A stretch of DNA of 39,712 nt from Nitrospiria bacterium (GTDB lineage: Bacteria > Nitrospirota > UBA9217): positions 1 to 39,712 of the forward strand of contig CAKKRC010000056.1 in assembly GCA_919902495.1 (NCBI GenBank), in the 5' to 3' direction. The translations under genes and the position numbers were made by a program. Of this stretch, positions 6,618 through 39,712 are shown piece after piece (within the stretch, counting starts at the first letter, position 1; each line of letters begins with the position of its first letter). The notes below the pieces were generated by a model. It saw only the letters and a list, made by a program, of their open reading frames with translations, had not been told where the DNA came from and did not search any database.

Positions 6618-6619
6618 TT

Positions 6620-6907: not shown

Positions 6908-6912
6908 CCGAA

Positions 6913-7128: not shown

Positions 7129-7208
7129 CAGGCCATCAGGACGATCCACTCCGGATGCGCGTATGCCGATGGGGAATGATGAGCGCTGGTATCATAGAGA
7201 GGGACCGC

Positions 7209-7706: not shown

Positions 7707-7768
7707 TGGAAACCACGGTCCGAAAGGCCGGATACACGGTTAAAACAAAATGACAAGAATGTTTTCTC

Positions 7769-7850
7769 GCAAAGCCGCAAAGGCCGCAAAGAGGTCTTTA
7801 AGTTCTGATTATTACACCGAATGAGTTGCTTTTCTTTGCGAGCTTAGCGA
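7769..7850 (+). repeat. CGCAAAG tandem-word repeat with inverted partner
   Basis: Three CGCAAAG words at 7769-7793 are followed by the complementary CTTTGCG at 7834-7840, so the whole segment can fold back on itself. It occupies the gene gap 7707-7912 ahead of the PAS protein. Words of this kind are dispersed in many bacterial genomes; here it is the chromosomal counterpart of the repeat families seen in the prophage. Confidence 0.55.
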
Positions 7851-7912
7851 CTCGCATAGAGGCGCCCACTGTTGGTTGCGAGAGATGCCTTTTCGTTCTT
7901 TTTAGGATCTTC

Positions 7913-10495: not shown

Positions 10496-10545
10496 GGGGA
10501 CATGATAACTAAGTATCGATAATCATGATAAATGCCTTTGTGGAT

Positions 10546-21284: not shown

Positions 21285-21827
21285 ATGGCGATGAACACCG
21301 CAACCAATCATGATTTGAAAATCCGCAAACGAGTGCAGCTCGTCCACATCGCCGCGAACGAACTGGGGCTCCTGGACCCGAAGAAGCACGACACGGATCC
21401 TGACGACGAATATCACACGATCCTGAAACGCTGGAACCGCCCCGGCACCCGCCAGCCGGTCACCTCGTCGCTACAGATGAGCTATCAACAGCTCGGGGAG
21501 CTGTTGGATTTTATGACGGCGCTGGGGTTCAAACTGAAAAGCAAGGGTCCAGGGTCCGGGGTCCAGGGGCCAGTTCACCCCTCACCCCAGCCCTCTCCCC
21601 CAAGGGTAGAGGGAACATCGAAGAAATACGCCTCAAGTCTTGACGGCCTCCGCGAAGAAATAACCGACCTGGCCCGCGAGCGCTGGGGAGACTCCTGGGA
21701 GCAGAGCCTGAACAAGCTCTGCCGGAAGTTCGGCGTGAGCCATTGGCGGTTTCTGAACGTGAACCACGGCAAGGCGGTGAAACAGCGGATTGAGAGCTGG
21801 CAGCAGGGAGAGGCGGAAACGGTATGA
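21285..21827 (+). CDS. gemA: Mu gp16/GemA-like protein
   Basis: 180 residues, AAAAGGAGG upstream. The N-terminal domain (RKRVQLVHIAANELGLLDPK, EYHTILKRW, MSYQQLGELLDFMTALGFKL) matches the DUF1018/gp16 family. The C-terminal domain (LAREHW-like LARERWGDSWEQSLNKLCRK, FGVSHWRFLN) completes it. Between them, residues 87-110 are encoded by two different inserted repeats (see the separate entry). GemA of Mu affects host gene expression and DNA topology, but its biochemical role is unclear. The stop overlaps the Mor/C-like start. Confidence 0.75.
   Translation: MAMNTATNHDLKIRKRVQLVHIAANELGLLDPKKHDTDPDDEYHTILKRWNRPGTRQPVTSSLQMSYQQLGELLDFMTALGFKLKSKGPGSGVQGPVHPSPQPSPPRVEGTSKKYASSLDGLREEITDLARERWGDSWEQSLNKLCRKFGVSHWRFLNVNHGKAVKQRIESWQQGEAETV
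21543..21614. repeat. Two repeats inserted in frame in gemA-like gene
   Basis: Bases 21543-21574 are AGGGTCCAGGGTCCGGGGTC-type words and 21575-21614 are a CTCACC/CTCTCCCC palindromic repeat. They lie back to back and read in frame as KGPGSGVQGPV and HPSPQPSPPRVEG. They enlarge the linker between the two domains of the gp16-like protein without breaking the frame. Confidence 0.8.
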
Positions 21828-25661: not shown

Positions 25662-25671
25662 AAAGGCCGAA

Positions 25672-25704
25672 GGTGGGAAGTTGGGAAGTTGGGAGGGTGG
25701 GAAA
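25672..25704. repeat. GAAGTTGGG tandem words before small terminase
   Basis: GTGGGAAGTTGGGAAGTTGG continuing to GGAGGGTGGGAA fills the gap between the winged-helix gene and the small terminase. The GGGAGGG part is the only Shine-Dalgarno-like stretch for the ATG at 25709, so the repeat supplies the ribosome site. Confidence 0.75.
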
Positions 25705-25708
25705 CGGC

Positions 25709-26221
25709 ATGGGTAAATCAGTTGACGACGAGATAAAAGAAAAAGCCTTTCAGCTCTGGCGCAAATGCGGCCGCTCTCCCGAGCGCGTCGTGAAGGAGCT
25801 GCGGGACCAGGGGCACATGGTCACGCGGCAGTCCATCGATACCTGGAAGAACAAGGGCCTCTGGGAAGACCGGGCCGCGCGCGCCGAGGCGCTGGAGCAG
25901 ACGGTGAACGACCCGCAGCTCTCCGGCGAGGAAAAGATGATCGCCGCGCTGCTCGGTCAGAAGGACCGCTATGAGAAATATTTTGAGACCCTGCCGATCG
26001 GCGAGATGGACACCCAGGCCGTCTATGCCTACACCAACATGATCACCACCATCCAGTCCATCCGGCAGAAGACCGCCGCATACAAGGCCGAGCAGTTCAT
26101 CGACTTTATGAAAGACCTGATCGGGTGGCTATCGAAGAATGACCCGGAGAGCGTGCCCGCGATCGAGAAGAACTTTGACGATTTCATAGCCTTTGCCAAG
26201 GAGAAGTATGGCAAGCGGTAA
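25709..26221 (+). CDS. Terminase small subunit (gp27/DUF1804-like)
   Basis: 170 residues. An N-terminal helix-turn-helix (KAFQLWRKCGRSPERVVKEL, then MVTRQSIDTWKNKGLWEDRA) of the Mu gp27/DUF1804 type, followed by a helical multimerisation region. It should recognise the packaging start and recruit the large subunit, whose start it overlaps by 14 bases. Confidence 0.78.
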   Translation: MGKSVDDEIKEKAFQLWRKCGRSPERVVKELRDQGHMVTRQSIDTWKNKGLWEDRAARAEALEQTVNDPQLSGEEKMIAALLGQKDRYEKYFETLPIGEMDTQAVYAYTNMITTIQSIRQKTAAYKAEQFIDFMKDLIGWLSKNDPESVPAIEKNFDDFIAFAKEKYGKR

Positions 26222-27854
26222 GGAAAAACTATTTGACCGCGCCATCGAGGAGCTGCGGCAGCAGATCCAGGCGAGCACCAAGCCGTTCCCCGAGGACAAG
26301 CTGGCGCAGAAGGTGCGCATCGCCACGGCTGAGAAAAACATGGAGTACTTCGGGAAGATCTATTTCCCGCACTATGTGACCTCGCCTCCCTCGGCGCTGC
26401 ACAAGTACATCTGCACCCGCTTCCCGGCCATGATCGAAAAGTCGATCGCAACCGGCCTCGGCGACAAGGAAGCGGACGCGGCCCCGCGCGGGAACGCGAA
26501 GTCTACCTGGACGACGCTCATTCTCGTGCTCTGGGTCGCCGCGTTCAAGAAGCGCAAGTTCCCGCTGATCATCTCCGAGACCAACAGCCAGGCCGCGGAC
26601 TTCATCAGCTTCATCAAACTGGAATTGGAAACGAACGAGCGCCTCGCCCAGGATTATCCGGACCTCTGCGGCGAAGGGCCGATCTGGCAGGCGGACACCA
26701 TCATCACGCGGAACGGCGTCAAGGTCCGCGGCGTGGGCGCGGGCCAGAAGCTCCGCGGCATGCGCCACGGGTCCCGCCGACCGGATCTCGTGATCGTGGA
26801 CGACCTGGAAAATGACGAGGCGGTGGAGAGCGCCGAGCAGCGCAAGAAGCTGGAGAAGTGGTTCTTCAAGGCGCTGATGAAGATCGGTCAGAAGTACACC
26901 GTCTTCATCGTCATCGGCACGATCCTGCACTACGAAAGTTTATTGAACAACCTGCTGCTCAAGCCGGGATGGAAAGGCCTGAAGTTTAAATCGATCATCA
27001 AGTACTCCAGCTCGCACCTCTGGAACGACTGGGAGTTGATCTTCACCAACATCACCATCGGCAAGGAACAGGCCGAGGCCGCAGCCGACGCCTTTTTTGA
27101 AGCGCACAAGGCCGAGATGCTCGCGGGCACGGAGGTCCTCTGGCCCGAGGTGGAGGACTACTACTACCTCATGAAGATGCGGATCTCCGAAGGCCCCGCA
27201 TACTTCGAGAGCGAGAAGCAGAACGAACCCATCAACCCCGAGGACGCCGCTTTCCTCGAAGAGTGGATCACCTACTACGATGACGACGAGGTGGACCTGA
27301 CCGGCCTGGCGCACGGCGGATCAGTTGACCCGTCGCTCGGGAAAAAGAGCAAGAACGCGGATCCGTCGGCGATCATCGGCGGAAAGAAAAAAGGCGAGAT
27401 CATTTACCTCACCTTTGCCGACATTGAGAAGCGCCACCCCGACAAGATCCTGACGGACCTGCTCGCGTACCACGAGAAGCAACACCTCGACCAGGTGGCG
27501 ATCGAGGCCGTGCAGTTCCAGGAGTTCTTCGCCGGCCACGTGGAGAAGGAAGCGCACAAACGGAACCTGACGCTGAACGTGCTCGCGGTCCCGGAGAACA
27601 CCGACAAGGACCTGCGCATCATCCGGCTGCAGCCCTGGATCAAGAACGGCTGGATCCGCTTTCGCAGGAGCGGCATGCAGGAGCTGATCCGCCAGATCAT
27701 CTACTACCGGCCCAAGGGCAAGGGCGGACACGACGACGGACCGGACGCCCTGGAGAAGCTCGTGAACCTCCTCGTCACCGGCGTCGGCAAGATAGAATAC
27801 CAGACCGTGGCATCGCGCACGTCCGGATTCGGAAAACAAAAGGGCGCGTGGTAG
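26208..27854 (+). CDS. Terminase large subunit (gp28-like)
   Basis: 548 residues from ATG 26208 (AAGGAGAAGT upstream). The ATPase half has Walker A APRGNAKST (92-100) and Walker B LVIVDDLEND (194-203). The nuclease half has Asp374 (GSVDPSLG), Glu433 (VAIEAVQFQ) and Asp510/Asp513 (HDDGPDAL), the metal ligands of an RNase-H-like fold. It drives headful packaging of prophage plus flanking host DNA in Mu-type phages. The motifs and length (Mu gp28 is 551) make the call secure. Confidence 0.93.
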   Translation: MASGKEKLFDRAIEELRQQIQASTKPFPEDKLAQKVRIATAEKNMEYFGKIYFPHYVTSPPSALHKYICTRFPAMIEKSIATGLGDKEADAAPRGNAKSTWTTLILVLWVAAFKKRKFPLIISETNSQAADFISFIKLELETNERLAQDYPDLCGEGPIWQADTIITRNGVKVRGVGAGQKLRGMRHGSRRPDLVIVDDLENDEAVESAEQRKKLEKWFFKALMKIGQKYTVFIVIGTILHYESLLNNLLLKPGWKGLKFKSIIKYSSSHLWNDWELIFTNITIGKEQAEAAADAFFEAHKAEMLAGTEVLWPEVEDYYYLMKMRISEGPAYFESEKQNEPINPEDAAFLEEWITYYDDDEVDLTGLAHGGSVDPSLGKKSKNADPSAIIGGKKKGEIIYLTFADIEKRHPDKILTDLLAYHEKQHLDQVAIEAVQFQEFFAGHVEKEAHKRNLTLNVLAVPENTDKDLRIIRLQPWIKNGWIRFRRSGMQELIRQIIYYRPKGKGGHDDGPDALEKLVNLLVTGVGKIEYQTVASRTSGFGKQKGAW

Positions 27855-27856
27855 TT

Positions 27857-27900
27857 TTTAAATCTGAAATCTGCAATTTGCAATCTGCAATTTGCACTTA
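27857..27900. repeat. ATCTGCAATTTGCA tandem words
   Basis: AAATCTGAAATCTGCAATTT and the following GCAATCTGCAATTTGCA fill the whole gap between the large terminase and the portal gene up to its AGAGG ribosome site. Another family of the same kind as the GAAGTTGGG and GGGTCCA words. Confidence 0.7.
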
Positions 27901-27909
27901 GAGGTTCTC

Positions 27910-30633
27910 ATGCCTTTACTCGACCAATACGGAAAAGAGATCAAAGCCAACAAGCCCATCCTGGAGCCCGTCGCGGTGCAGACCATCCGCGATCGATACT
28001 CCTCCTACCCCAGCCAGGGCCTCACGCCCGAGCGGCTCGCCGCCATCCTGAAGGAAGCGGACCAGGGCTATGTCCTGCGCCAGGCGGAGTTGGCTGAAGA
28101 GATCGAAGAAAAGGACGGGCACCTCGGGTCGGTCCTTCAATCGCGCAAGCTCGCCGTGGCCGGGCTCACCTGGGAGGTCCTTCCCGCGTCCGAATCGGCG
28201 GAAGATAAAAAGATAGCCGAAGCGGGCAAGGAGATGCTGGATTACATCGGCAGCACGGACCCGCACGAGGAAGGCTTTGAGGGCGCGGTCATCGATTCGC
28301 TCGACGGCCTCTTTAAGGGCTTCGCCGTGCAGGAGATCATGTGGGAGATCGCCGAGGGCCAGGTCTGGGCCAAGAGCCTGGAGTGGATCCACCAGAAGCG
28401 CTTCACCTTCTCCGGCCCGCAAACGACCGTCGGCAATCAAACCCTCTGGCCGCTGCTGAACATTCCGCGCCTGCTCACTGACGCGGAGCCCATCTATGGT
28501 GATGAACTGCTGCCGAACAAGTTTGTGTTCCACCGCCACAAGGCGAGAAGCGGCGCGACCAGCCGCGGCGGACTGCTCCGCGCGTGTGTGTACATGTACC
28601 TGTTCAAGAATTACGACATCAAAGACTGGCTCGTCTTTAACGATCTGTTCTCCGTGCCCATGCGCGTGGGCAAGTATAAGTCCGGCGCGAGCCCCGCGGA
28701 CATCGACGCGCTCAAGACCGCCGTGTTCAACCTGGGCGTGGACGCAGCGGCGGTGATCTCCGACAGCACGGTGATCGAGCTGCTTGAAGCCGCGACCAGG
28801 ACAAACGCCGGTGGCTTTAAAGAGCTGGCGGAATACTGCGAGAAGACGCAGACCAAGGTCGTACTGGGACATTCCAGCGCGGCGGACTCCACGCCCGGCA
28901 AGCTCGGCAACGAGCAGCAGGGGCAGGACCTCCAGCAGAACCTGCTCGAGTCCGACGCGAAACAGATCGAGCGCACGGTCCGGTTCCAGATCCTCGGGCC
29001 GTGGAAGACCTACAACTACGGACCGAACGCGAGCATCCCGAAGTTCAAAATGCACTACGAGGCCGACGAGGACCTCGCCTCTCTCGCCGAAACCTACGGC
29101 AAGCTCGTAACGTCGGTCGGGTTCACCGGAATCCCGGTCTCGCATGTGCATGAGCGGTTTGGGATCCCCGAGCCGAAGGATGGGGAGAAAACTATTGTCC
29201 CCCCGCAGCCGGCAAACCCGTTTGCGGGGTTGATGCCTTCAGCGCCAGGACAGAAGACAGCGGCGACAAGCCCTGACGATGTTCCTCCGGTGGATGAGTC
29301 CGGCGCCGCGAAGGAGTTGCAGACCACACAGGCCTCCGTGCTGAACGGCGCGCAGATCACCGCGGCGACCGCCATCGTTATGGCCGTGGCCAACGGCGAG
29401 ATCCCGCGCGACGCGGGGCTCGGACAGCTACAGGTGTTGTTCAACCTCACGCCGCAGCAAGCCGAGCAGCTCATGGGCACGGCAGGAACGGCGCAATTTA
29501 AACAGGCCGCGTCTCCCGAGCCGCCCGCGCCGATCGACAAACAGCCGCCTCCGGACAAACAACAGAATAAGCTCTGTTCCTGCGGTGTTGATCATCACTC
29601 CGCACTCCGCACTCCGCACTCCGAACTGGAGCTGATGCTCAATGCCCTCGAAGGCGCCGACGCCGCATGGGTCTCGGAATACATGAAGCGCCTGGAGCCC
29701 AGCCTCCACGGAGCAAAACAGTCCGCTCTGAACGAGATCGAGCGCTGGCTCGCGGAGCTGACAGAGCCGCCCACGGCGGAAGAGTTCAACGCGAAGATCC
29801 AGCAGATCCTCGGCGACGCCTACGCGAAGATGGACAGACAGACGGTAGACAACACCGTCGCCGACATGTACCGCTACTACAAAAACAGCCTGCCGCTCGC
29901 GAACGTCTCGACCTATTTCGGCGGAGCGGACGCCCGCGCCATGGAGTGGCTCGCCGAGAACGACAACCAGTTCTATTCCAAGTTCATCAAAAATCCCGAG
30001 TCGCAGGACGCGCTCACACAGTTCCTGAACGACCGCTATCTGCAGGGCGGCGAGGGTCTGTTCGGCCGGGGCGATCCGAAAGTCATCGCAGAGCTGAAAG
30101 CCCTGCTCGGCGAGAAGCTCACCGACATCAGCGGCTTCCAGGCGAACAGGATAGTAGACACGAGCGTGCAAAGAATACGCAATTTTGCCCATCTCGAAAA
30201 AATGGCCTCCGCGGGGATCCCCGAGGTGGAGATCTACGAACCAACCGAGGAGTGCGCCTTCTGCGCCAGCATGAACGGCAGGGTCATCCAGGTGGCAACG
30301 GCCTACGGACGGATGCAGGAGATCCTGGACATGACGCCCGACGAGTACGTCGAGTCCATGCAGCAGACCCCGGACAAGGTGGACAATCTCGAGGCGCTGC
30401 AAAATTCCGGAGCGATGCCGCCCTATCATCCGCACTGCCACGGCCGCCCCATCATGCGGATACAGAAGAACAGGTCAGACGTTGGTAGCCGCAGGCTTCA
30501 GCCTGCGCCGATCATCACCGTCCCCGTGCATCTGACGTTCCACGGCAGCGGGGGAAATAAAAAGATCGTGAGCCGGGACGCCGAGGGAAATGTTCTTAAG
30601 ACGTGGGAGTCTTCCCCGTCAAACGAGGATTGA
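27910..30633 (+). CDS. Portal-MuF fusion (gp29 + gp30-like)
   Basis: 907 residues from ATG 27910. Residues 1 to about 440 are a DUF935 portal (EIEEKDGHLGSVLQSRKLAV; GLFKGFAVQEIMWEI; NYDIKDWLVFNDLFSVPMRV). After a Pro/Ala-rich linker, residues about 580-850 are a MuF/gp30-like minor head domain with helical repeats and the zinc-type end CAFC (Cys782, Cys785) ... HPHCHGR (840-846). In Mu these are two genes. The portal ring is the DNA gate; MuF-type proteins enter the head and may be ejected. Two repeats are read in frame: SALRTPHSE at 29598-29627 in the linker, and SRRLQPAPI from GCAGGCT-tc-AGCCTGC (30491-30506) in the C-terminal tail. Confidence 0.9.
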   Translation: MPLLDQYGKEIKANKPILEPVAVQTIRDRYSSYPSQGLTPERLAAILKEADQGYVLRQAELAEEIEEKDGHLGSVLQSRKLAVAGLTWEVLPASESAEDKKIAEAGKEMLDYIGSTDPHEEGFEGAVIDSLDGLFKGFAVQEIMWEIAEGQVWAKSLEWIHQKRFTFSGPQTTVGNQTLWPLLNIPRLLTDAEPIYGDELLPNKFVFHRHKARSGATSRGGLLRACVYMYLFKNYDIKDWLVFNDLFSVPMRVGKYKSGASPADIDALKTAVFNLGVDAAAVISDSTVIELLEAATRTNAGGFKELAEYCEKTQTKVVLGHSSAADSTPGKLGNEQQGQDLQQNLLESDAKQIERTVRFQILGPWKTYNYGPNASIPKFKMHYEADEDLASLAETYGKLVTSVGFTGIPVSHVHERFGIPEPKDGEKTIVPPQPANPFAGLMPSAPGQKTAATSPDDVPPVDESGAAKELQTTQASVLNGAQITAATAIVMAVANGEIPRDAGLGQLQVLFNLTPQQAEQLMGTAGTAQFKQAASPEPPAPIDKQPPPDKQQNKLCSCGVDHHSALRTPHSELELMLNALEGADAAWVSEYMKRLEPSLHGAKQSALNEIERWLAELTEPPTAEEFNAKIQQILGDAYAKMDRQTVDNTVADMYRYYKNSLPLANVSTYFGGADARAMEWLAENDNQFYSKFIKNPESQDALTQFLNDRYLQGGEGLFGRGDPKVIAELKALLGEKLTDISGFQANRIVDTSVQRIRNFAHLEKMASAGIPEVEIYEPTEECAFCASMNGRVIQVATAYGRMQEILDMTPDEYVESMQQTPDKVDNLEALQNSGAMPPYHPHCHGRPIMRIQKNRSDVGSRRLQPAPIITVPVHLTFHGSGGNKKIVSRDAEGNVLKTWESSPSNED

Positions 30634-30722
30634 CAGGGCCGCTGTTTTGGCAGGGGCAAAACCGAGAATCAGCTCCTTCCCGGACCACAAGGCGGGGCGT
30701 TATAGCCGGTCGGAACGAAAAA

Positions 30723-30761
30723 GAACGCTTGCCCGTTTATAAACGCACTCAGGCCTATAGG
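30723..30761 (+). promoter_or_regulatory. Possible degenerate third late promoter
   Basis: GAACGCTTGCCCGTTT (30723-30738) resembles the start and end of the late element core (GAATGCTTCGCAAGATTT) with two bases missing. TATAGG at 30756-30761 falls one base from the expected -10 position. It lies in the 195-base gene-free interval 30634-30828 before the fibre genes, an interval that otherwise contains only short inverted words. Confidence 0.3.
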
Positions 30762-30828
30762 ATGAGGGGCGAATAGCAGCATTCAGGATTCAAAAATCAA
30801 TATTCAAGATGTTTGAGGAGGTTTACCC

Positions 30829-31242
30829 ATGTCAGACATGAGCAATTATCTGGAAACGATGATCGGCAACCTGCTGTTCCGCACGCAGGTTGCCTGGAAA
30901 CCGGCAGCCATCTGGATCGCGCTGTACACCACCCTGCCTGCCGAGGACGGCACCGGCGGCGTGGAGGTCACCGGTGGGAACTATGCCCGCGTGCAGGTGG
31001 CCCAGCTCGACGCGAACTGGAACGCGCCGGCAGCCGGCAACGGCCTGTTCGACAACGTGGCCGATATTGTGTTCCCCGCGCCGAACGCCAACTGGGGCAA
31101 CATCGTCGGCTGGGGCGTCCTGGACGCGAACGCGGCCGGAAATCTTTTGATCTTCAAAACCCTCACCGTGCCGAAGACCGTGAACAACGGGGACCCCGCG
31201 CCGAAGTTCGCGGCGGGCGCGCTCGACGTGACGTTCGCGTAG
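30829..31242 (+). CDS. Phage fibre-associated structural protein
   Basis: 137 residues, GAGGAGG upstream. SNYLETMIGNLLFRTQ, IWIALYTTLPAEDGTGGVEV, GGNYARVQV, NWGNIVGWGVLDANAAGNLL and KTVNNGDPAPKFAAGALDVT follow a pattern well known from small phage proteins annotated as tail-fibre or head-fibre components. It is probably a virion surface protein; its position between MuF and the neck protein points to the head or neck. Confidence 0.7.
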   Translation: MSDMSNYLETMIGNLLFRTQVAWKPAAIWIALYTTLPAEDGTGGVEVTGGNYARVQVAQLDANWNAPAAGNGLFDNVADIVFPAPNANWGNIVGWGVLDANAAGNLLIFKTLTVPKTVNNGDPAPKFAAGALDVTFA

Positions 31243-31251
31243 AGAAAAATT

Positions 31252-32277
31252 ATGATCCTCGACGCCATCACAAAAAAGCTGGAGATCATTCTCGCCGGAG
31301 CGGTAACGGCAAATCAACTGCCATTCCAGTGCGACTGGGTGGACGTTACGACTACGGCGTCCACGCCCGGCACGAACGGAGGCCTGACGAACAGCGCCGT
31401 TGCCGTGGACCTCGTTCCCGTTCCCGGAGGGACGACTCAGCGCATCGTCAAATACATCAACATCTACAACGCGGACACCGCGGCGGCCACGGTCACGGTT
31501 CGGTTCAATGATAATTCCACACTCCGCACTCTCGTCAAAATAGTTCTTCAGGTAGGCGAGACCATCATCTACAACGGGACTGAGTTTCTGGTGCTCGATG
31601 CCACGGGGTCAAAGAAGCTCGCGCAGTCCGGAACGGGCCGCTGGCTCAGAACCGTCGTGCTTACCGCCGGATCTTCTCATGTGACCGGACCGCAGGCGAC
31701 CAGCATCTTTGTCCGCATGGTCGGCGGCGGCGGCGGCGGCGGCGGATGTTCCTATGCCGCCAGCAACTTTGCTTTCGGCGGCGGTGGAGCTTCCGGGGCA
31801 TACGCGGAAAAGACCTTCACCGTCACGCCGAACACCGCATACACCTACGCAATCGGCGGAGCGGGCGCGGCGGGCGCGAACACCGCCGGCACGGGTGGAA
31901 CGGGCGGGGACAGCACCTTCGCGGTAGGCGGAGTTACCGTCACGGCCAAGGGTGGACTGGGCGGCGTGGGTATGGCAACGGGAGCGACGCTTATCTTTGC
32001 CCGGGGCGGAGCCGGTGTAATAGCAACACTTGGCGATGTGAACGGACGCGGTATGGCAGGGCGACCCGGTATACGTCACAGCGGACTGCTCGGCTGTTCC
32101 GGCAACGGCGGGTCAAACCCGCTGGGCGGCGGAGGCGGGAACGGATCAAACGCGCACGCTGTAGGAGCGGCAGGCTTGGGGTACGGCGCCGGCGGCGGCG
32201 GCGGCGCGGCCATGACTGCAGCGGTCCTGGGCGGAGCGGGCACGGCAGGCTGCATCATCGTGGATGAGTTCGCATGA
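31252..32277 (+). CDS. Glycine-rich fibre/adhesin
   Basis: 341 residues. The N-terminal 110 residues form a beta-rich attachment domain (QRIVKYINIYNADTAAATVT). From residue 158 the protein is dominated by glycine: FVRMVGGGGGGGGCSYAASN, GAGAAGANTAGTGGTGGDST and so on to the IIVDEFA end. The MVGGGGGGGG start and I-I-x-(E/D) finish are typical of the glycine-rich domain of phage adhesins, which in known examples packs as polyglycine-II helices and binds receptors. Its coding sequence stays in frame through long GGC runs, a likely slippage hotspot. The stop overlaps the next ATG. Confidence 0.75.
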   Translation: MILDAITKKLEIILAGAVTANQLPFQCDWVDVTTTASTPGTNGGLTNSAVAVDLVPVPGGTTQRIVKYINIYNADTAAATVTVRFNDNSTLRTLVKIVLQVGETIIYNGTEFLVLDATGSKKLAQSGTGRWLRTVVLTAGSSHVTGPQATSIFVRMVGGGGGGGGCSYAASNFAFGGGGASGAYAEKTFTVTPNTAYTYAIGGAGAAGANTAGTGGTGGDSTFAVGGVTVTAKGGLGGVGMATGATLIFARGGAGVIATLGDVNGRGMAGRPGIRHSGLLGCSGNGGSNPLGGGGGNGSNAHAVGAAGLGYGAGGGGGAAMTAAVLGGAGTAGCIIVDEFA

Positions 32278-33200
32278 AATATACCATAGACAAATTCGGG
32301 AACGATTCATTCTACCAGACGGCAACCTCGTTTGGCGTGGATGCGTTCCTCTCGATCTCGTACCTGTTCGCAGTAGGCGGCGTGCAGGCCCTGCTCGAAG
32401 GCGCGGCCTCGTGTTCGATCACAGCAGCCGGACAGCTCGCCACGGCGATCCCCCTCGCGGGCGCGGCGCAGGATGCGGCAACGGCAGCGGGCAGCCTCAC
32501 CACGGCTATTCCACTTGCCGGCGCGGCGCAGGATTCGGCAATAGCGGCAGCAGCGCTCACCACGGAGATACCCCTCGTGGGATCCGCCCAGGACGCGGCA
32601 ACGGCGGCGGCGGCGCTCACCACTGAGATACAACTGGAGGGCAGCGCGGTCTGCTCTATGAGCGCCGATGCAGAGCTCACGGCGCCGCAGCCGATCCTGC
32701 TTGAGGGCTCGGCCCTTGACACGGCAACGACAGCGGCGGCGGCGCTCACCACGGAGATCCCTCTCGCGGGCGGAGCAGAGGCATCCGCGATCGCCGAGGG
32801 CGATCTCACGGCGGGGGCCGCTCCGGATATTCTGCTCGAAGGGTCGGCCCTGTGTTCGATATCGGCGACAGCGGACCTCACCACCAGCCCGGCACAGCCC
32901 GCTACCGGCGGGGGCGGCGGCAGCGACGCGAAGCCGAGCTACATCACGCCGTACCGACGGGCGCGGGAGCAGGCGGCGATCGGCGCGGAGTTATCCGGCT
33001 CGGCCAGGATCTCCTACCGGGCGAGCGGAACGCTTACGGATGACAAACAAGAGGGCAACCACGCGGGGTTGCCCCTACAGGGCTCGGCGCGGATCTCGAT
33101 GACGGCGGCCGGAGAATTGACCGACAGCGCGTTCGACGGGCTCACCGATGACGACATCGTCGCGCAATTGATGTTTGACGAGGAGCTGCTCGCGGCATGA
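32274..33200 (+). CDS. Ala-rich repeat protein of virion surface
   Basis: 308 residues. After a short start (MKYTIDKFGNDSFYQTATSF) there are about nine to ten degenerate 20-residue repeats of the form L-x-G-(S/A)-A-x(5)-A-x(2)-A-x-L-T-x(3), for example IPLAGAAQDAATAAGSLTTA. A Gly/Ser linker and SYITPYRRAREQAAIG precede the last two repeats. Between these a dispersed DNA repeat (GGGCAACC-acgcg-GGGTTGCCCC, 33053-33075) is read in frame as EGNHAGLPL. The C-terminus is acidic. Repeats of this type occur in phage fibre proteins; copy number probably varies by recombination. Confidence 0.65.
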   Translation: MKYTIDKFGNDSFYQTATSFGVDAFLSISYLFAVGGVQALLEGAASCSITAAGQLATAIPLAGAAQDAATAAGSLTTAIPLAGAAQDSAIAAAALTTEIPLVGSAQDAATAAAALTTEIQLEGSAVCSMSADAELTAPQPILLEGSALDTATTAAAALTTEIPLAGGAEASAIAEGDLTAGAAPDILLEGSALCSISATADLTTSPAQPATGGGGGSDAKPSYITPYRRAREQAAIGAELSGSARISYRASGTLTDDKQEGNHAGLPLQGSARISMTAAGELTDSAFDGLTDDDIVAQLMFDEELLAA

Positions 33201-33637
33201 ACATCTCCGTCAAAAGCAACACCAACGTGGAGGCTATGATGAAGCGCCTGGGCGAGGACGTTGCCGGCGGTCTGATCGCCGGGACGACGACGGTGCTCGA
33301 AACCGCCGACGCGTTGATCTCTCCGGAGGTCCCGGTCAAGACCAGCAACCTGGTGAACTCCGGGACCATCGAGATCTCGCCGGACGGACGAAAGGGCGTC
33401 CTCCGATGGCTCGCGGACTATGGCCGCTACGTGGTTGAAGGCACCGGCCTCTTCGGCCCGTTTAAACGCAAGATCGTCCCGAAGAACGCCAAGGCGCTCA
33501 AGACGCCCTGGGGTCCGCGCAAGAGCATCAAAGGCCAGGAGCCGAACGACTTCATCACGCGCGGCGTCGAGAAGCTGAATCCGCCGGAAGCGTTCGAAGA
33601 GGGCATGGGGAGATACCTGAAGAAGAAGGGATGGTGA
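33197..33637 (+). CDS. HK97 gp10-like/Mu G-like neck or tail-completion protein
   Basis: 146 residues in an ATGA overlap. ISVKSNTNVEAMMKRLGEDV, PVKTSNLVNSGTIEI, YGRYVVEGTGLFGPFKR, PPEAFEEGMGRYLKKKGW fit the HK97-gp10/tail-completion family: helix at the start, P-V-D/K-T-G/S-x-L-x-x-S in the middle and a C-terminal helix. It should lie at the head-tail joint. In Mu the corresponding gene (G) also lies between gp30 and protease I. Confidence 0.72.
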   Translation: MNISVKSNTNVEAMMKRLGEDVAGGLIAGTTTVLETADALISPEVPVKTSNLVNSGTIEISPDGRKGVLRWLADYGRYVVEGTGLFGPFKRKIVPKNAKALKTPWGPRKSIKGQEPNDFITRGVEKLNPPEAFEEGMGRYLKKKGW

Positions 33638-33644
33638 AGGGCGC

Positions 33645-33730
33645 GAAGTTGAGAAGATGAGAAGTTGAGAAGGTAGGCTGTTGGTTTTACTCAACCTCTC
33701 AACCTCGGCTTCATCAACCTCTCAATCTCG
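33645..33730 (+). repeat. GAAGTTGAG hairpin element, copy 1
   Basis: A purine-rich arm (GAAGTTGAGAAGATGAGAAG...), a unique centre TAGGCTGTTGGT (33674-33685) and a pyrimidine-rich arm (CTCAACCTCTCAACCT...). The whole element recurs in inverse orientation at 37241-37321. The arms pair imperfectly. It fills the gap between the neck gene and late promoter element 2. Confidence 0.75.
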
Positions 33731-33738
33731 TGAATTTC

Positions 33739-33781
33739 CCCGAATGCTTCGCAAGATTTGTCTGGACGAATAGCCTACTGT
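33739..33781 (+). promoter_or_regulatory. Late promoter element 2 (PI position)
   Basis: The 23-base element 33739-33761 is identical to 23600-23622. TACTGT at 33776-33781 occupies the same place as TATTCT in copy 1, 15 bases after the element. Predicted start is near 33788, only about 16 bases before the protease ATG, with AGGAG at 33790-33794. There is no -35 box. Confidence 0.6.
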
Positions 33782-33803
33782 ACGGGCACAGGAGAAACCT
33801 TCC

Positions 33804-34925
33804 ATGTCAAAGCGCATTTTGATCGTTGATTCCGCACCCCGCACTCCGCACTCCGCACTTGGGCTGCTGCTCATGTTACATAACATAACACCCGACGGCG
33901 ACATGGTGCTGCTGAACAGCATCGACCTGAACGGCAAGGTCCCCACGGAGATCCAGGTGATCCCCTACGGTGTGCTCAATACGCCGAAGTACGGAAAGCT
34001 TGTCGTGGACGATGAGTCTCTCGCCTCCATCATGTCCTTCCGGATGAAACAGAAGAACGACAGCGTGATCGACTACGAGCACCAGACCTTTGCCGAGCCG
34101 CCGATCGCCTCGCCCGCTGCCGGCTGGATCAAGCGGTACGTCAACAAAGGCAAGGACGGCATCTGGGCCGTCGTCGAGTGGACCGCCAAGGCGCGGCAAA
34201 TGATCCTGAACAAGGAGTACCGCTACTTCTCGCCCGTGACGCTCACGCGCAAGAGCGACGGGAAAGTGCTGGCGCTCCTGGGCGGCGGGCTCACCAACAT
34301 GCCGAACATCGACGGGATGGTTCCGTTGACGAACAAATCCGCAATCCACAATCCGCAATCCGCAATTCAAAAGGAGGGTCCAAAAATGAAGAAGCTTCTC
34401 GCAGCACTCGGGCTTTCGGAAACGGCCACCGAAGACGAGGGAATAATCGCACTGAACAAACTGAAGGCCGACAGTTTCGCGATCGTGGCCAATCGCGCGG
34501 TGCTCGCCATTCTCGGCGTGTCCGACTCCGCGTCGGAGTCCGAGGTCACCGGCACCATCATGGCCATGAAGCAGAGCCACACGCAGGTCGCGTCGCTCCA
34601 GACGGAGCTGAACACGATCAAGATGGCCAACGCTGAGCGCGAGGCCACGGAACTCGTGACCAACTCCATGCGTCCTGATGAGAAGGGCATGGTGAAGGTC
34701 TCCCCCGCCATGAAGGACTGGGCGCTCGCCTATGCCAAGCGGGACCCGGAAGGCTTCAGGGTGTACATCAACAAGGCCCCCGGCGTCATCAGCACCGAGA
34801 AGATCGCGGGCGACGACAAGGGCGGCGGGTCCGGCGGGCAGCAGCTCGACGAGACCGAACTGCAGGTCTGCAAGGCCTTCGGCAACAAGCCGGAGGATGT
34901 GATGAAAAACAAGGCGGCCGCTTAA
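33804..34925 (+). CDS. Mu gpI-like head protease with scaffold domain
   Basis: 373 residues from ATG 33804. The protease half has PTEIQVIPYG, FRMKQKNDSVIDYEHQTFAE, AAGWIKRYVNKGKDGIWAVV and EYRYFSPVTLTRKSDGK, hallmarks of the Mu-like I protease. It is joined to a helical scaffold half (about 195-340; SLQTELNTIKMANAEREATE). It processes the scaffold during prohead maturation. Two tandem-word repeats are in frame: SAPRTPHSA near the N-terminus (33832-33860) and SAIHNPQSAIQ (34337-34372) exactly between the two halves. The protein begins right after late promoter element 2. Confidence 0.88.
   Translation: MSKRILIVDSAPRTPHSALGLLLMLHNITPDGDMVLLNSIDLNGKVPTEIQVIPYGVLNTPKYGKLVVDDESLASIMSFRMKQKNDSVIDYEHQTFAEPPIASPAAGWIKRYVNKGKDGIWAVVEWTAKARQMILNKEYRYFSPVTLTRKSDGKVLALLGGGLTNMPNIDGMVPLTNKSAIHNPQSAIQKEGPKMKKLLAALGLSETATEDEGIIALNKLKADSFAIVANRAVLAILGVSDSASESEVTGTIMAMKQSHTQVASLQTELNTIKMANAEREATELVTNSMRPDEKGMVKVSPAMKDWALAYAKRDPEGFRVYINKAPGVISTEKIAGDDKGGGSGGQQLDETELQVCKAFGNKPEDVMKNKAAA
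34386..34925 (+). CDS. Scaffold protein (gpZ-like), nested in-frame start
   Basis: 179 residues translated from an internal ATG of the protease gene. AAGGAGGGTCC directly upstream is one of the best ribosome sites in the window, which is hard to explain inside a gene unless used. The product is the helical scaffold region alone (MKKLLAALGLSETATEDEGI to the C-terminus). Mu likewise makes its scaffold Z from within gene I. The repeat at 34337-34372 lies just before the internal ribosome site. Confidence 0.75.
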   Translation: MKKLLAALGLSETATEDEGIIALNKLKADSFAIVANRAVLAILGVSDSASESEVTGTIMAMKQSHTQVASLQTELNTIKMANAEREATELVTNSMRPDEKGMVKVSPAMKDWALAYAKRDPEGFRVYINKAPGVISTEKIAGDDKGGGSGGQQLDETELQVCKAFGNKPEDVMKNKAAA

Positions 34926-34935
34926 CGGCGAGAGG

Positions 34936-34975
34936 CCGAAGTTGGGAAGGTGGGAAGTTGGGAAGTTGGGAAAAA
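34936..34975. repeat. GAAGTTGGG tandem words before decoration gene
   Basis: CCGAAGTTGGGAAGGTGGGA then AGTTGGGAAGTTGGGAAAA, followed by an A/G-rich leader with AAGGAGA at 34994 for the ATG at 35007. Same family as 25672-25704 and the purine arms of the hairpin elements. Confidence 0.75.
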
Positions 34976-35006
34976 GCACAAGGGGAAAAAAACAAGGAGA
35001 AAAAAC

Positions 35007-36062
35007 ATGAAAAAGAAAATGAAACAGATGGCGTTGTTCGGACTGCTGATGGTCAGCATCATGCTGGCCGCGGCGGTTCTCATGGCGGTGGGCTCGCTCA
35101 AGACACCGCTGGTTGTCATCATCCCGGCGATCGCCGCGGTCCTCTTTGTCGCATCCGGCACGGGCCTGCGGATCCTGGGCAACCAGATCGGCGCGCTCAC
35201 CGCGGACCGCGACACGCCGCGCAGGGCCGGGCAGCAGGTATCGCTCGGCGTGGCAACGACTAAGAAGATCTACGCGGGCTCGCTGGTCATGCGCAGCGCA
35301 ACGGGCTACGCCACTCCCGGGGCGATCGCAACGGGCTGCATCGGCGTGGGCCGGGCGGCGGAATATGTGGACAACACCCTCGGCGCGGACGGCGCGGTCT
35401 CGGTGCTCATCGACAAAGGCGTGTACCGGTTTAAGAACAGCGCCGCCGGCGAGGCCATTGCCGTCTCCGAGATCGGCAATCTCTGCTACGTCGTGGACGA
35501 TGAAACGGTATCCAAAACGGACAACGGCGGGACCCGGTCCATCGCCGGACGCATTCATGATGTCGATTCGTCCGGCGTCTGGGTGGAGTTCAGCGTCATC
35601 CCGCGCACGGCCACGGTCGGCAGCGCGGACCTGGACCCGACCGCGATCAAGTACGCCACGGTCGCCCTGACCAATGCGAACATCAAAAACCTGCGCGCCA
35701 CGCCTATCACCCTCGTGGCGGCCCAGGGCGCAAGCAAGGTGATCGAGTTCGTCTCGGCGCAGCTTCGGCTCGACTACGGGTCCAACGTCTTCACGGAGAC
35801 CGCCGACAACCTGGCGGTGCGCTATGAGAACGGGGCCGGCGCGCTCGCGTCACAGGCGATCGAGTGCACGGGCTTCATCGACGCGGCGGCGGACACCATC
35901 ACCAACGCGCTGCCGAAGATCGATGCCATCGTGGCCCAGGCCAGCATGGCGAACAAGGCCATCGTGCTGCACAACACCGGCGATGGAGAGTTTGGCGGCA
36001 ACGCGGGCGCCGACACGCTCATGGTCGTCAAGGTCGCGTACCGCGTCCATGACTTTGCGTAA
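35007..36062 (+). CDS. Capsid-decoration-like protein with hydrophobic leader
   Basis: 351 residues from ATG 35007. The first 52 residues are a basic start (MKKKMKQMALFG) and two hydrophobic helices (about 8-28 and 33-51). From LTADRDTPRRAGQQVSLGVA the protein follows the DUF2190-like decoration pattern (GQxxxxGVA...K.IYAGSLVM, GYATPGA, IGVGRAAEYVDN). A second beta-rich domain with YATVALTNANIKNLRATPIT, RLDYGSNVFTETADNLAVRY and AYRVHDFA follows. The position between scaffold and gpT suits a head decoration protein. Membrane-spanning leaders are not expected in such proteins. AAGGAGA precedes this start, and I see no better internal start. Confidence 0.6.
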   Translation: MKKKMKQMALFGLLMVSIMLAAAVLMAVGSLKTPLVVIIPAIAAVLFVASGTGLRILGNQIGALTADRDTPRRAGQQVSLGVATTKKIYAGSLVMRSATGYATPGAIATGCIGVGRAAEYVDNTLGADGAVSVLIDKGVYRFKNSAAGEAIAVSEIGNLCYVVDDETVSKTDNGGTRSIAGRIHDVDSSGVWVEFSVIPRTATVGSADLDPTAIKYATVALTNANIKNLRATPITLVAAQGASKVIEFVSAQLRLDYGSNVFTETADNLAVRYENGAGALASQAIECTGFIDAAADTITNALPKIDAIVAQASMANKAIVLHNTGDGEFGGNAGADTLMVVKVAYRVHDFA

Positions 36063-36069
36063 ATAAATC

Positions 36070-36136
36070 AGGGTCCGGGGTCCAGGGTCCGGGGTCCAGG
36101 GTTAAACCTGGCTCCTGGCTACTGGCCCCTGGCCCC
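36070..36136. repeat. GGGTCCAGG tandem-word hairpin
   Basis: GGGTCCGGGGTCCAGGGTCC continues to a centre CCAGG-GTTAAA-CCTGG, then pyrimidine-rich CTCCTGGCTACTGGCCCCTG. Purine arm, short centre and complementary pyrimidine arm are the same architecture as the GAAGTTGAG elements, but with other words. It lies between the decoration-like and capsid genes; related words occur at 19668-19700 and 21543-21574. Confidence 0.75.
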
Positions 36137-36165
36137 ATCTTTCATCTTTTAGGAGGAACCACAAA

Positions 36166-37221
36166 ATGAAAAAGCTTGGAACCATCACCCTCTGGCTCGT
36201 CATGCTGACGATCGCGCTCGTCGCGTTTGCGGCTGCGCCCGCCGGAGCTCTCGCGGCCACGGGGGCCGCTGCCCTGCCGATGCCCTTCATCGGCCTCATG
36301 ATCGTAAACCGATCAACCATCAGCGCCATCTTCGTGAACCTGAAAACGACCTTCAACAACGCCTTCGACGGGGCGCCGTCGACCTGGCAGAAGATCGCCA
36401 TGCTCGTGCCGAGTTCCAGCAAGAGCAACGACTACGCCTGGCTCAGCATGTTTCCCAAGATGCGCAAGTGGGTGGGCGAGAAGGTAGTAAAGAGCTTCAG
36501 CGCATTCAAGTACACCATCACCAACGACGACTGGGAAGCCACCGTCGAGGTGGACCGGAACGACATCGAAGACGACAACCTCGGGATCTACGCGCCCCAG
36601 GCGCAGATGGCCGGCTGGTCCGCGAAGCAGCTCCCCGATGAGATCGTCATCGCCCTGGTCAACGGCGCTTTCACCGCGCTCTGCTACGACGGCCAGTTCT
36701 TCTGCGACACCGACCATCCCGTGGGCAACGAGTCCACCGGCGTGGCCAGCGTCAGCAACAAGGGCGTGGTGGTCCTGTCCTGCGCGACCCTGGCCCTTGC
36801 CCAGGCGTCCTACGGCGCGGCCCGCACGGCCATGAAGAAGTTCAAAAACGACGACGGCCAGCCGCTGAACATCACGCCGAATGTTTTACTGTGCGGCCCT
36901 GCCCTGGAGGACACCGCGCTCACGCTCAAAAACAACGAGCGCCTCGAGGACGGAAAGCAGAACCCCTACCGCGGGACCTTCGAAGTGGTTGTGGACAGCC
37001 GGATCACCAGCGACACCGCCTGGTTCCTTTTGGACACGACCAAGCCCATCAAGCCGTTCATCTACCAGGAGCGCAAGGCCCCGAACTTCGTCGAGGTCAC
37101 GGATCCGCAGTCCGAGGACGTGTTCAAGCGGAAAAAGTTTCTCTTCGGCGCCGAGGCGCGCGCGGCCGGCGGCTACGGCTTCTGGCAGCTCTGCTGGGGC
37201 AGCACGGGTCTGGGAGCGTAG
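36166..37221 (+). CDS. Major capsid protein (gpT-like) with signal-peptide leader
   Basis: 351 residues. From Met45 (MIVNRSTISAIFVNLKTTFN) the sequence follows Mu gpT closely in pattern: GAPSTWQKIAMLVPSSSKSN, YAWLSMFPKMRKWVG, DRNDIEDDNLGIYAP, PDEIVIALVNGAFT, CYDGQFFCDTDHPV. Ahead of this lies a 44-residue leader with basic start (MKKLGT), hydrophobic core (ITLWLVMLTIALVAFAAA) and Ala-x-Ala sites (GALA, AAA). The upstream ATG has TAGGAGGAACC before it, whereas Met45 has no ribosome site, so the leader should be translated. It might be cut by signal peptidase or by the gpI protease, or might tether assembling heads to the membrane. Confidence 0.9.
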   Translation: MKKLGTITLWLVMLTIALVAFAAAPAGALAATGAAALPMPFIGLMIVNRSTISAIFVNLKTTFNNAFDGAPSTWQKIAMLVPSSSKSNDYAWLSMFPKMRKWVGEKVVKSFSAFKYTITNDDWEATVEVDRNDIEDDNLGIYAPQAQMAGWSAKQLPDEIVIALVNGAFTALCYDGQFFCDTDHPVGNESTGVASVSNKGVVVLSCATLALAQASYGAARTAMKKFKNDDGQPLNITPNVLLCGPALEDTALTLKNNERLEDGKQNPYRGTFEVVVDSRITSDTAWFLLDTTKPIKPFIYQERKAPNFVEVTDPQSEDVFKRKKFLFGAEARAAGGYGFWQLCWGSTGLGA

Positions 37222-37240
37222 CGTCGTAACGACAACATCG

Positions 37241-37321
37241 GAAGTTGGGAAGTTGGGAAGCTGGGAGGTTGAGAGAAACCACCAACAGCCTAACTTCTCA
37301 ACTTCTTAACCTCTCAACTTC
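37241..37321 (-). repeat. GAAGTTGAG hairpin element, copy 2 (inverted)
   Basis: On the minus strand this reads GAAGTTGAGAGGTTAAGAAG..., then TAGGCTGTTGGT (complement of 37281-37292), then a pyrimidine arm, the same order as at 33645-33730. It fills the gap after the capsid gene. Confidence 0.75.
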
Positions 37322-37342
37322 AGACCTTTCATCGGAGGTTTT

Positions 37343-37666
37343 ATGATCATCACCGTCACATCAAAATCCGAACTCGGCTTCCGCCGCTGCGGGACCCGGT
37401 TCACCCGCGAGCCACAGGACGTCGAGGTCGACGCAAAGACCCTCGCCGTCCTGAAGGCCGAGACAAACCTCGTTGTTGTAGAGACAACGGAAAAGGCCAA
37501 GACGCCGCCCCCCCCGGTTGACACCGCGAAGGAGCTGATCGAAAAGATCAAGACCATGACCGACGTGGCCGCCCTGGGCGAGCTGTTCAAGGGCGAGACC
37601 CGCAGCACCGTCAAGGACGCCTTGAAGGCGCGGATCAAGGAGCTGAAGGACGCGGAAAAGAAATAA
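37343..37666 (+). CDS. Mu gp35-like small head-region protein
   Basis: 107 residues, CGGAGG upstream. The N-terminal part (SELGFRRCGTRFTREPQDVE, then LAVLKAETNLVVVE) matches the FluMu/gp35 N-terminal domain (xFRRaGxxFxxxxxxvxv). A Pro-rich linker and a C-terminal helical domain follow (AKELIEKIKTMTDVAALGEL). The position directly after gpT agrees with Mu gp35. Function unknown. Confidence 0.75.
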   Translation: MIITVTSKSELGFRRCGTRFTREPQDVEVDAKTLAVLKAETNLVVVETTEKAKTPPPPVDTAKELIEKIKTMTDVAALGELFKGETRSTVKDALKARIKELKDAEKK

Positions 37667-37672
37667 TGCGAA

Positions 37673-37759
37673 ACGCCCGCGTCCCCGGCGGCGAATGTCG
37701 TCGGGGTCAGTGCTCCGCAGAGGAGCAGCGCGGGCGTCACCATGGCGCGGCGGCCATGG
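37673..37759 (+). ncRNA. Predicted three-way-junction RNA element
   Basis: Closing stem ACGCCCGCG (37673-37681)/CGCGGGCGT (37729-37737), nine perfect pairs. It encloses hairpin A CCCCGGCGGC-GAAT-GTCGTCGGGG (37683-37706, ten pairs including two G-U) and hairpin B TGCTCC-GCAGA-GGAGCA (37711-37727, six pairs). A third hairpin CCATGGC/GCCATGG (37740-37759) follows. It fills the 122-base gap between the gp35-like gene and the SGNH fibre gene. There is no T-run, so it is not a simple terminator; processing site, leader or independent RNA are options. Confidence 0.5.
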
Positions 37760-37788
37760 CCTGAAGAGCAGCCAAGGAAAATCAACCA

Positions 37789-39432
37789 ATGACAACGATC
37801 CCCGTCATACATCCATTCGTCTCCGCCTCCCGGCAGAACAACTGGTACAACTTCGCCGCCTGGGGCGACAGCCTCACCAACGGCGCGGGCGGCAACGGGA
37901 CGACCTATCCCGCGGTCCTGTCCAGCTTGTTCGGCTATCGCAACGTTCACAACAACAACAACGCCGGCGGGACCAGCGTCGATATCCGGGCGCGGTTCGA
38001 GGCCGATATTGCCGTCCACGCCGGAGACTTCACAATCATCTGGGCGGGCCGGAACAACTACACCGACCCCACGCAGGTAAAGGCCGACATCGCCGCCATG
38101 GTCGCGGCCCTGCCGAGCCCCAGGCGGTTCCTCGTGATGTCCGTCCTCAATGGGAATTATGCGGGCAGTGAGTACCTCGGGTTCGCCAATTACAATCTCA
38201 TCATCGCGCTTAATAATGATCTCGCGGCCCTGTACCCGGACAATTATCTCGACATCCGCGCCCATCTCGTCAGCTTGTACGACCCCGGAACTCCGCAGGA
38301 CGTAACCGACTTCGGCAACGACATCCCTCCGTCAACGCTTCGGTCAGACGCCATTCACCTGAACGCCGCCGGATATACCGCCGTGGGGAATCGCGTGCAT
38401 ACGTGGATCGCCGCGAACGACGCAGGCCTGGGCCGCACGCTGCCCGATCTGCAGGACCTCGTCACGATCTTCGGCTCGCCCCCGCCCGTCGGCACGGTCA
38501 TCCCGGCGATCGGAGCATTCACGGACCTGACGGCACAGCGGATCGACGTCGTCTCCGGGACGGGCGCAAACAGCGTTGCCGGCCCCACCCTGGCACTGTC
38601 CACGAGCAATTACGGCTACCAGTTCACCATAGCTGCTATCAACATGTACTCCAGCTATGGCGGCACGCAAACCGCGACGCTGAACTCCGGGCCGAAGATC
38701 CTGGCGCTGGCCATGGACCAGATAACCAAAACAGCGCTGACCTTCTGGACCGCAAACCCCACGACCGCCGCCACGGGCGGCTCGGAAAAGATGCGGATAG
38801 ATTATGACGGGCGCGTGGGGATAGGGATCGCCGCGCCCCTGGGCAGGCTGCAAGTGCATAGCTACAGCGATCCCTATATCACGGGCACTGCCGTTTACGG
38901 ACATCTCGTGTTAAGTGCAACCTCAACCTCGCTGCAAATGGGAGTCAGCGCCGCGTCCCCCTACGAAGGCTGGATACAGATGCGCCATACAACCCAGTCG
39001 GGGTTCACCTATCCGCTCTCCATCCAGCCCCTGGGCGGCAAGGTAGGCTTCGGCATCATCACGCCGACCTCGTGGCTCCATGCAGTCACTGGTCTGATCG
39101 CGGCGACCGGGGACGAGATAGCTTATCGGCTCGAATACACCACCAACAAGCAGACGTCCGGGAACGACACCGGGCTGCTCATCCAGCAGACCGACACGCT
39201 GAGCCCCGGCACGTCCCTGATGCTCGATCTCCAGGTGGGGACCACGAGCAAGCTGTCCGTGAATAACACGGGCGTCCTCACCTGCGCGCAGTACCGGCTT
39301 ACCGCCCTCAACACCGCCCCCGCGAACGCCGGAGACACCGGCACGCTCGGCGAGGTGCGGATAGACGCTTTGAACATATACGTCTGCACCGCTACCAATA
39401 CCTGGAAGCGTGCGGCGACATCGACATGGTAA
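37789..39432 (+). CDS. SGNH/GDSL-hydrolase fibre protein
   Basis: 547 residues, CAAGGAAAATC upstream. The N-terminal 200 residues are an SGNH hydrolase: block I AWGDSLTNG (Ser28), Gly61 in NNAGGTS, block III WAGRNNY (Asn89/90) and block V SDAIHLNAAGY (Asp187, His190), a complete catalytic set. The remaining 340 residues are a beta-rich fibre (SGTGANSVAGPTLALSTSN; EKMRIDYDGRVGIGIAAPLG; LSVNNTGVLTCAQYRLTALN), typical of trimeric tail-spike shafts. No self-cleaving chaperone motif is seen. It probably de-esterifies O-acetylated surface polysaccharide during adsorption. Its place right after the head genes, before tail genes, is unlike Mu. Confidence 0.85.
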   Translation: MTTIPVIHPFVSASRQNNWYNFAAWGDSLTNGAGGNGTTYPAVLSSLFGYRNVHNNNNAGGTSVDIRARFEADIAVHAGDFTIIWAGRNNYTDPTQVKADIAAMVAALPSPRRFLVMSVLNGNYAGSEYLGFANYNLIIALNNDLAALYPDNYLDIRAHLVSLYDPGTPQDVTDFGNDIPPSTLRSDAIHLNAAGYTAVGNRVHTWIAANDAGLGRTLPDLQDLVTIFGSPPPVGTVIPAIGAFTDLTAQRIDVVSGTGANSVAGPTLALSTSNYGYQFTIAAINMYSSYGGTQTATLNSGPKILALAMDQITKTALTFWTANPTTAATGGSEKMRIDYDGRVGIGIAAPLGRLQVHSYSDPYITGTAVYGHLVLSATSTSLQMGVSAASPYEGWIQMRHTTQSGFTYPLSIQPLGGKVGFGIITPTSWLHAVTGLIAATGDEIAYRLEYTTNKQTSGNDTGLLIQQTDTLSPGTSLMLDLQVGTTSKLSVNNTGVLTCAQYRLTALNTAPANAGDTGTLGEVRIDALNIYVCTATNTWKRAATSTW

Positions 39433-39443
39433 AGGAGACGATC

Positions 39444-39712
39444 ATGAAGGTGGACATGGACCAGGTATTCAAGGAACTCGACGGGAAGGTGATCAAGGAC
39501 GGGGGCGCCGAACTCAAGCTCGAAAACCTCGCCGTCCGGGCATTGAACGCGCCGTCGAGCAAAGTGGGACCCGATGGAAGGATCATCCAGATAGGGGCCG
39601 AGGAAAAGATCGCGCGGTTCAATCTTTCACGGAAAGTATTTTCCGGCGGTGAGGTCGATCTCACCACGGACGAATGCGTGCTCATCAAAAAGTGCATCGA
39701 CGCGGCGTATGA
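39444..39712 (+). CDS. Late phage protein, partial (runs off window)
   Basis: 89 residues visible from ATG 39444 (AAAGGAGACG upstream); the frame is open at the window edge. MKVDMDQVFKELDGKVIKDG, LKLENLAVRALNAPS, FNLSRKVFSGGEVDLTTDEC and VLIKKCIDAAY look like the small pre-tail chaperone or tail-assembly proteins of phages that carry an L-T-x-E-x(3)-I-K-x(2)-I pattern. Not identifiable further. Confidence 0.6.
   Translation, partial: MKVDMDQVFKELDGKVIKDGGAELKLENLAVRALNAPSSKVGPDGRIIQIGAEEKIARFNLSRKVFSGGEVDLTTDECVLIKKCIDAAY

Follow-up and report, generated by a model that had tools for sequence, protein, structure and literature searches.

The capsid proteins gpT of phage Mu and gp38 of phage JBD30 (PF10124, phrog_371) are leaderless and start at the codon that is canonical for their family. 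For Mu gpT, this start is annotated in its record as 'confirmed by amino acid sequencing'. Tailed-phage shell proteins are thought of as purely cytoplasmic. Removable N-terminal stretches are found on other HK97-fold capsid proteins, namely the delta domain of HK97 (about 100 residues) and the propeptide of T4 gp23 (about 65 residues), neither of which is signal-like. T4 relies on gp20, gp40 and YidC to start its prohead at the inner membrane (PMC9958956). In SPN3US, proheads are located on the inner membrane, and the prohead protease is required for their release (PMC7411985).

The window analyzed here (39,712 nucleotides) spans contig C56 of its genome from end to end. The Mu-like phage genes on it cover the transposase, repressor, terminase, portal, protease/scaffold, head and tail fibres. 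Its major capsid protein (MCP) belongs to the same family as Mu gpT and JBD30 gp38 over the whole body and has the same fold. The capsid gene also has the same neighbors as in those phages, with the protease/scaffold before it and connector genes after it. However, where gpT and gp38 begin at the canonical codon, the window MCP begins with a 44-residue hydrophobic leader.

The capsid and decoration genes of the window

PF10124 (Mu-like_gpT, E = 1.8e-97) and phrog_371 (E = 1.9e-108) both match the gpT-like MCP (351 aa; Table 1) from residue ~45-53 onward, and the start of Mu gpT aligns with residue 45. The window gene starts 44 codons upstream of this canonical position. Residues 1-44 read MKKLGTITLWLVMLTIALVAFAAAPAGALAATGAAALPMPFIGL and are followed by the canonical MIVN. 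AlphaFold predicted a confident helix at residues 2-22, a disordered linker at residues 27-41 and then the gpT body. The best Foldseek matches of the model were the JBD30 procapsid (E = 7.3e-19) and the Mu capsid (E = 5.6e-17), an HK97 fold. The body of this protein is an ordinary gpT capsid protein, and the novelty lies in the leader. No gpT gene other than this leader-bearing one was found in the genome to which the window belongs.

AGGAGG, with a spacer of 9, serves the ATG at 36166. The canonical Met45 (36298) has no Shine-Dalgarno sequence, and neither do two further in-frame ATGs, which lie at -32 and -6 counted from it. As judged from these ribosome sites, the leader is translated from the upstream ATG. 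The initial annotation had described a Sec-like leader of 44 residues, AGGAGG at the upstream ATG and a Met45 lacking a ribosome site, all of which the sequence confirms. Its further statement that the decoration-like protein opens with two hydrophobic helices agrees with the helices predicted at residues 2-27, 35-49 and 51-60.

The decoration-like gene lies directly before the MCP gene, and the two adjoin in nearly all loci that we collected. In the window protein, phrog_1731 matches residues 63-195. With few exceptions, the top Foldseek matches of this domain were capsid decoration proteins of phages, among them lambda gpD; the best had E = 1.6e-3 (probability 0.99) and none fell below 0.001. 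The structural model thus gives good but not decisive grounds for a lambda gpD-like fold. Residues 206-301 weakly match (E = 0.0011) the orf16 chain of the LME-1 phage capsid (PDB 9eg4).

Within the gene for the gpI-type protease, an internal ATG at 34386 stands behind AAAGGAGGG, a strong ribosome site that we read directly. This ATG is the probable start of a nested scaffold gene resembling Mu gene Z.

Table 1. Features of the window in and around the head genes
Feature	Position	Strand	Basis
gpI-type head maturation protease with in-frame internal scaffold Z	33804-34925	+	PF10123 Mu-like_Pro (E = 1.2e-68), phrog_328
Probable nested scaffold gene (Z-like)	34386-34925	+	internal ATG with ribosome site
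Shine-Dalgarno AAGGAG of the decoration gene	34994-34999	+	read from sequence
Decoration-like gene, start ATG 35007	35007-36062	+	
Two-helix hydrophobic leader, residues 1-62	35007-35192	+	predicted helices; same leader in L003
Decoration body: putative lambda gpD-like domain (~residues 68-197) and second domain	35193-36062	+	phrog_1731, Foldseek, LME-1 orf16
Shine-Dalgarno AGGAGG of the MCP gene	36151-36156	+	placed for upstream ATG
MCP gene	36166-37221	+	
44-residue Sec-signal-like MCP leader	36166-36297	+	sequence, start scoring, leader statistics, AlphaFold
gpT (HK97-fold) MCP body from canonical Met45	36298-37221	+	Pfam, phrog, Foldseek; no ribosome site at Met45
Tandem arrays	21544-21573, 25669-25703, 27861-27896, 29596-29627, 33831-33859, 34336-34366, 34938-34972, 36069-36133, 37240-37271		

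Distribution, anatomy and evolution of the leaders

We collected gpT loci from IMG/VR scans with the window protein, the family profile and a distant member, from decoration-gene scans, from one species-genome scan and from related-genome searches. Among the matches listed, this gave a sample of 205 distinct loci. Translation starts were scored by ribosome sites, and 158 were canonical, 44 upstream and 3 unclear, so that 202 loci had a clear start. Scored in this way, both start states occur within the gpT family as sampled. Since the loci were picked by similarity to leader-bearing and leaderless queries, the resulting figure of a fifth is a share of the sample and not of nature. The leaders were 39-57 codons long in 44/44, with no intermediates between leader and canonical start, and the extensions with a usable ribosome site were hydrophobic in every case (44/44). 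One leader-bearing locus (L054) is on a 1.4-Mb scaffold of Mariprofundus ferrooxydans PV-1, and at least one leader-bearing copy is therefore a prophage in a cultured bacterium. A search of the window's own phylum returned only distant relatives, whose matches start at or after the canonical start.

The initial annotation had itself raised two ways in which the leader could prove spurious, and neither holds on sequence grounds. A random recent extension in one genome is ruled out by the presence of leaders in 44 of 202 loci. A mis-called start, with translation beginning at Met45 and the upstream codons unread, would be consistent with the Met found at the canonical position in the window and in 24 of the 44 leader-bearing proteins. 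However, Met45 lacks a ribosome site, and the remaining 20 proteins have Leu (19) or Ile (1) at this position, which means that there is no ATG at the old start. The leader frame is also kept and its hydrophobicity is selected, as described below. We rejected this explanation on these three grounds and find it scarcely credible.

Sequence statistics on the 44 MCP leaders give a Sec-type anatomy with a basic n-region, an uncharged hydrophobic core and an AxA-type site. Residue 2 is Lys or Arg in 39/44, the core comprises 13-25 residues, none of them charged, strongly polar or Pro, and the N-terminal flank is more positive than the C-terminal flank in all 44. AxA follows the core in 38 leaders, whereas shuffles that keep composition gave 29.6 (p = 0.0015). 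For the looser motif [AVSTGLC]xA, the leaders showed no excess over shuffles. After the AxA region comes a variable, often acidic linker and then a brief run of hydrophobic residues that closes with [GA]-[FLIM]-[GA]-Gly. Gly occupies position -1 of the canonical start in 40/44 leaders, while two, those of the window and L002, have Leu there. The n-h-c anatomy, the AxA sites and the fast change with hydrophobicity kept are shared with Sec signal peptides and anchors. Those normally occur on exported or membrane proteins, whereas here they are on a cytoplasmic shell protein.

The position of the leader, exactly before the canonical start with its conserved Gly, would also suit an internal propeptide like the delta domain. 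Hydrophobic N-termini would then cluster inside the procapsid, aid its formation and be cut by gpI, with no membrane involved. Other HK97-fold capsid proteins do have removable N-terminal stretches, and those of HK97 and T4 gp23 have the same N-terminal placement as the MCP leader, although they are longer and not signal-like. The N-arm of JBD30 rearranges upon maturation (PMC11445458). However, export-type anatomy (Lys/Arg at residue 2, an uncharged core, AxA in excess of shuffles) is not expected of a scaffold internal to the capsid, nor are similar leaders on the outer decoration protein, and the Z scaffold is present anyway. We consider an internal propeptide unlikely.

We built a quick tree of 113 gpT bodies, on which change counts are approximate. 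The leader state changes about 15 times on this tree, and at least nine changes are forced by the starred branches. L003, the sister of the window (86% identical), lacks an MCP leader, and the next relative, L002 (81% identical), has one. In alignments of sister phages, the leader is an exact insertion or deletion behind a common ribosome site and start, which indicates that it is gained and lost as an exact cassette. Values of pN/pS were 0.46-0.92 for the leader versus 0.06-0.37 for the body. Leader hydrophobicity was kept beyond simulated random nonsynonymous change (combined p = 4e-4 for eight pairs sharing no sequence). By these measures, the leader is selected for hydrophobicity despite fast sequence change, as signal sequences behave.

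The decoration gene shows the same dichotomy of leader-bearing and leaderless forms as the MCP gene, with leaders in 15 loci. Three forms were seen. Signal-like leaders occur in L196, L207, L062 and the L015 group, and the one in L062 ends in LPLIGFAG, closely resembling MCP leaders. L018, L220 and L227 have single anchors with positive charge after the helix, for which an N-out/C-in topology is predicted. The two-helix form is found in the window and L003. Overall, signal-like N-termini were present on 38/195 MCPs and 11/184 decoration proteins, compared with 5/563 of the other genes upstream and 9/1020 of those downstream in the same loci (about 0.9%). The concentration of signal-like starts in these two genes exceeds chance.

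A signal-peptidase cut in the L196 and L207 decoration proteins would give TALSADK and TALTADK, which is the N-terminus of leaderless decoration proteins minus Met. This match, together with the textbook signal peptides, would suit true export, in which part of the MCP or decoration protein acts in the periplasm, for example by coating virions at lysis. The C-in decoration anchors would not export, however. Secretion of the MCP would moreover starve head assembly, since DNA is packaged in the cytoplasm and no second gpT gene was found in the genome. True export is therefore, in our view, very unlikely.

Both genes were readable in 185 loci, of which 38 had a leader on the MCP only, 14 on the decoration protein only and one, the window, on both. 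These counts suggested a strict either/or use of the leader, which we did not retain: the depletion of leader pairs was not significant (Fisher p = 0.13-0.20, in statistics that ignore relatedness). Paired leaders on neighboring genes, which the initial annotation had read as a pattern, thus co-occur once in 185 loci. What stands of that reading is the translated, Sec-like, conserved and selected leader; the pairing does not.

The claim that no such arrangement is known for gpT capsids is in line with our literature search, which found no description of a gpT capsid leader; most subscription journals were outside its reach. When three leader-bearing MCPs were compared with phage records by tblastn, none of the matches listed reached into the leader. 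No 40-residue extension was present in any of 12 annotated gpT records examined out of 216 (Mu, Klebsiella ST405-OXA48phi1.1, Faecalibacterium Mushu, a Helicobacter prophage, HS6, RC1, RS1, Pelagibaca P1, Mannheimia 3927AP2, CF53c, Fc22 and Vibrio ZX4290). The sig_peptide annotated on the MCP of Salinibacter phage M31CR41-2 was considered as a precedent and rejected, because it spans the whole gene and the protein has no hydrophobic leader. In RefSeq, sig_peptide features cover an entire capsid or protease gene in L178 (NC_042352.1, 3872-4879) and L179 (NC_042351.1, 598-1869). These whole-gene features in two Salinibacter phages look like an annotation error.

Membrane docking as a proposed role for the leader

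The most economical and most likely reading is that the leader docks head proteins at the membrane and is later removed; insertion, assembly at the membrane and cleavage are what we infer. In this scheme, the leader is attached in frame to one of the abundant head proteins, most often the gpT MCP, in certain lineages the gpD-like decoration protein, and in the window to both. Being made first, it would bring the nascent head protein, with its ribosomes and messenger, to the inner membrane, where proheads would form. Signal peptidase at the AxA-type site, the phage protease near the conserved Gly, or both would then cut the leader, so that the N-arm would be like that of ordinary gpT and the prohead would be free. 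We put a modular, removable membrane-targeting leader of this kind at a little under an even chance. The broader proposal, that head building on the inner membrane through an exchangeable, removable export-type leader on the capsid or decoration protein is common to a widespread class of Mu-like phages, is one that we rate slightly lower.

The topology of the leaders bears on docking in two directions. C-in and two-helix decoration leaders are predicted to hold their domain in the cytoplasm at the membrane, and they fit docking better than export. However, the charge polarity of the MCP leaders predicts an N-in/C-out orientation with the capsid domain sent to the periplasm, which is a difficulty for docking: a body placed in the periplasm by classic-signal insertion would be unable to join DNA packaging. 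As a conjecture, the signal topology and docking would be compatible if translocation of the capsid domain, which would have to fold fast, were slow or arrested. The window itself, with Leu at -1, lacks the conserved Gly near which the phage protease would cut. We also sought a cut motif for gpI shared with the I/Z polypeptide, and the conserved junction motif was not found elsewhere in gpI/Z beyond shuffles. The leader is dispensable in the gpT family, since most gpT loci, including those of phages proved to grow (Mu and JBD30), lack one.

The varying topology, and the presence of a leader on either of two abundant late proteins, could also be explained if the leaders were directed against the membrane. 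They would accumulate in the inner membrane, or block it or the Sec machinery, and so aid lysis timing, host take-over or the exclusion of other phages; capsid assembly would not be their target. Capsid protein stuck in the membrane would cost virions, however, and we regard such an attack as distinctly improbable.

If docking is correct, the leader phages would resemble T4 in starting their heads at the inner membrane (PMC9958956). The route would differ, because T4 uses its portal and a phage chaperone, whereas in the leader phages the shell or decoration protein would carry the membrane signal within its own sequence. Release by the prohead protease in SPN3US is like one version of the leader model, although SPN3US is a giant, unrelated phage and the accessible part of its description (PMC7411985) mentions no Sec-type leader on the capsid protein. 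In about one fifth of the sampled gpT loci, the main shell protein has a leader that is of export type and under selection, and this leader switches on and off between sister phages. It is relevant to two questions: why certain phages assemble their heads at the membrane, and how capsid proteins come to have removable N-termini. Natural relatives with and without the leader make a direct test of the site of head formation possible.

Other features of the window and related loci

Short tandem arrays with units of 7-8 bp (AATCCGC, GAAGTTGG, AGGGTCC, CACTCCG) are found at many phage gene junctions of the window (Table 1). Some are read inside genes, as with 33831-33859 and 34336-34366 within the gpI gene. 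Large genes for proteins of 1388 and 889 aa, with no family assigned, lie left of the repressor (1-10500), and head genes run to the right end (26193-39712). The gene order of the phage looks wrapped; the contig ends have no exact overlap.

In L270, where the MCP also has a leader, the gpI-type protease encoded ~1630 bases before the MCP start has an apparent signal-like leader of its own, MKKTAVALLTLALALQATADVHLLPVGEF. In some phages with leaderless MCPs, the capsid gene is soon followed by genes for small proteins that have textbook signal peptides. Such genes are at 5166-5732 and 5823-6146 in L007, at 5223-5879 in L062, ~1.3 kb after the MCP start in L207 and ~1 kb after it in L186 and L287. 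Behind the signal, some of these small proteins have sequence that seems to resemble fibronectin type III.
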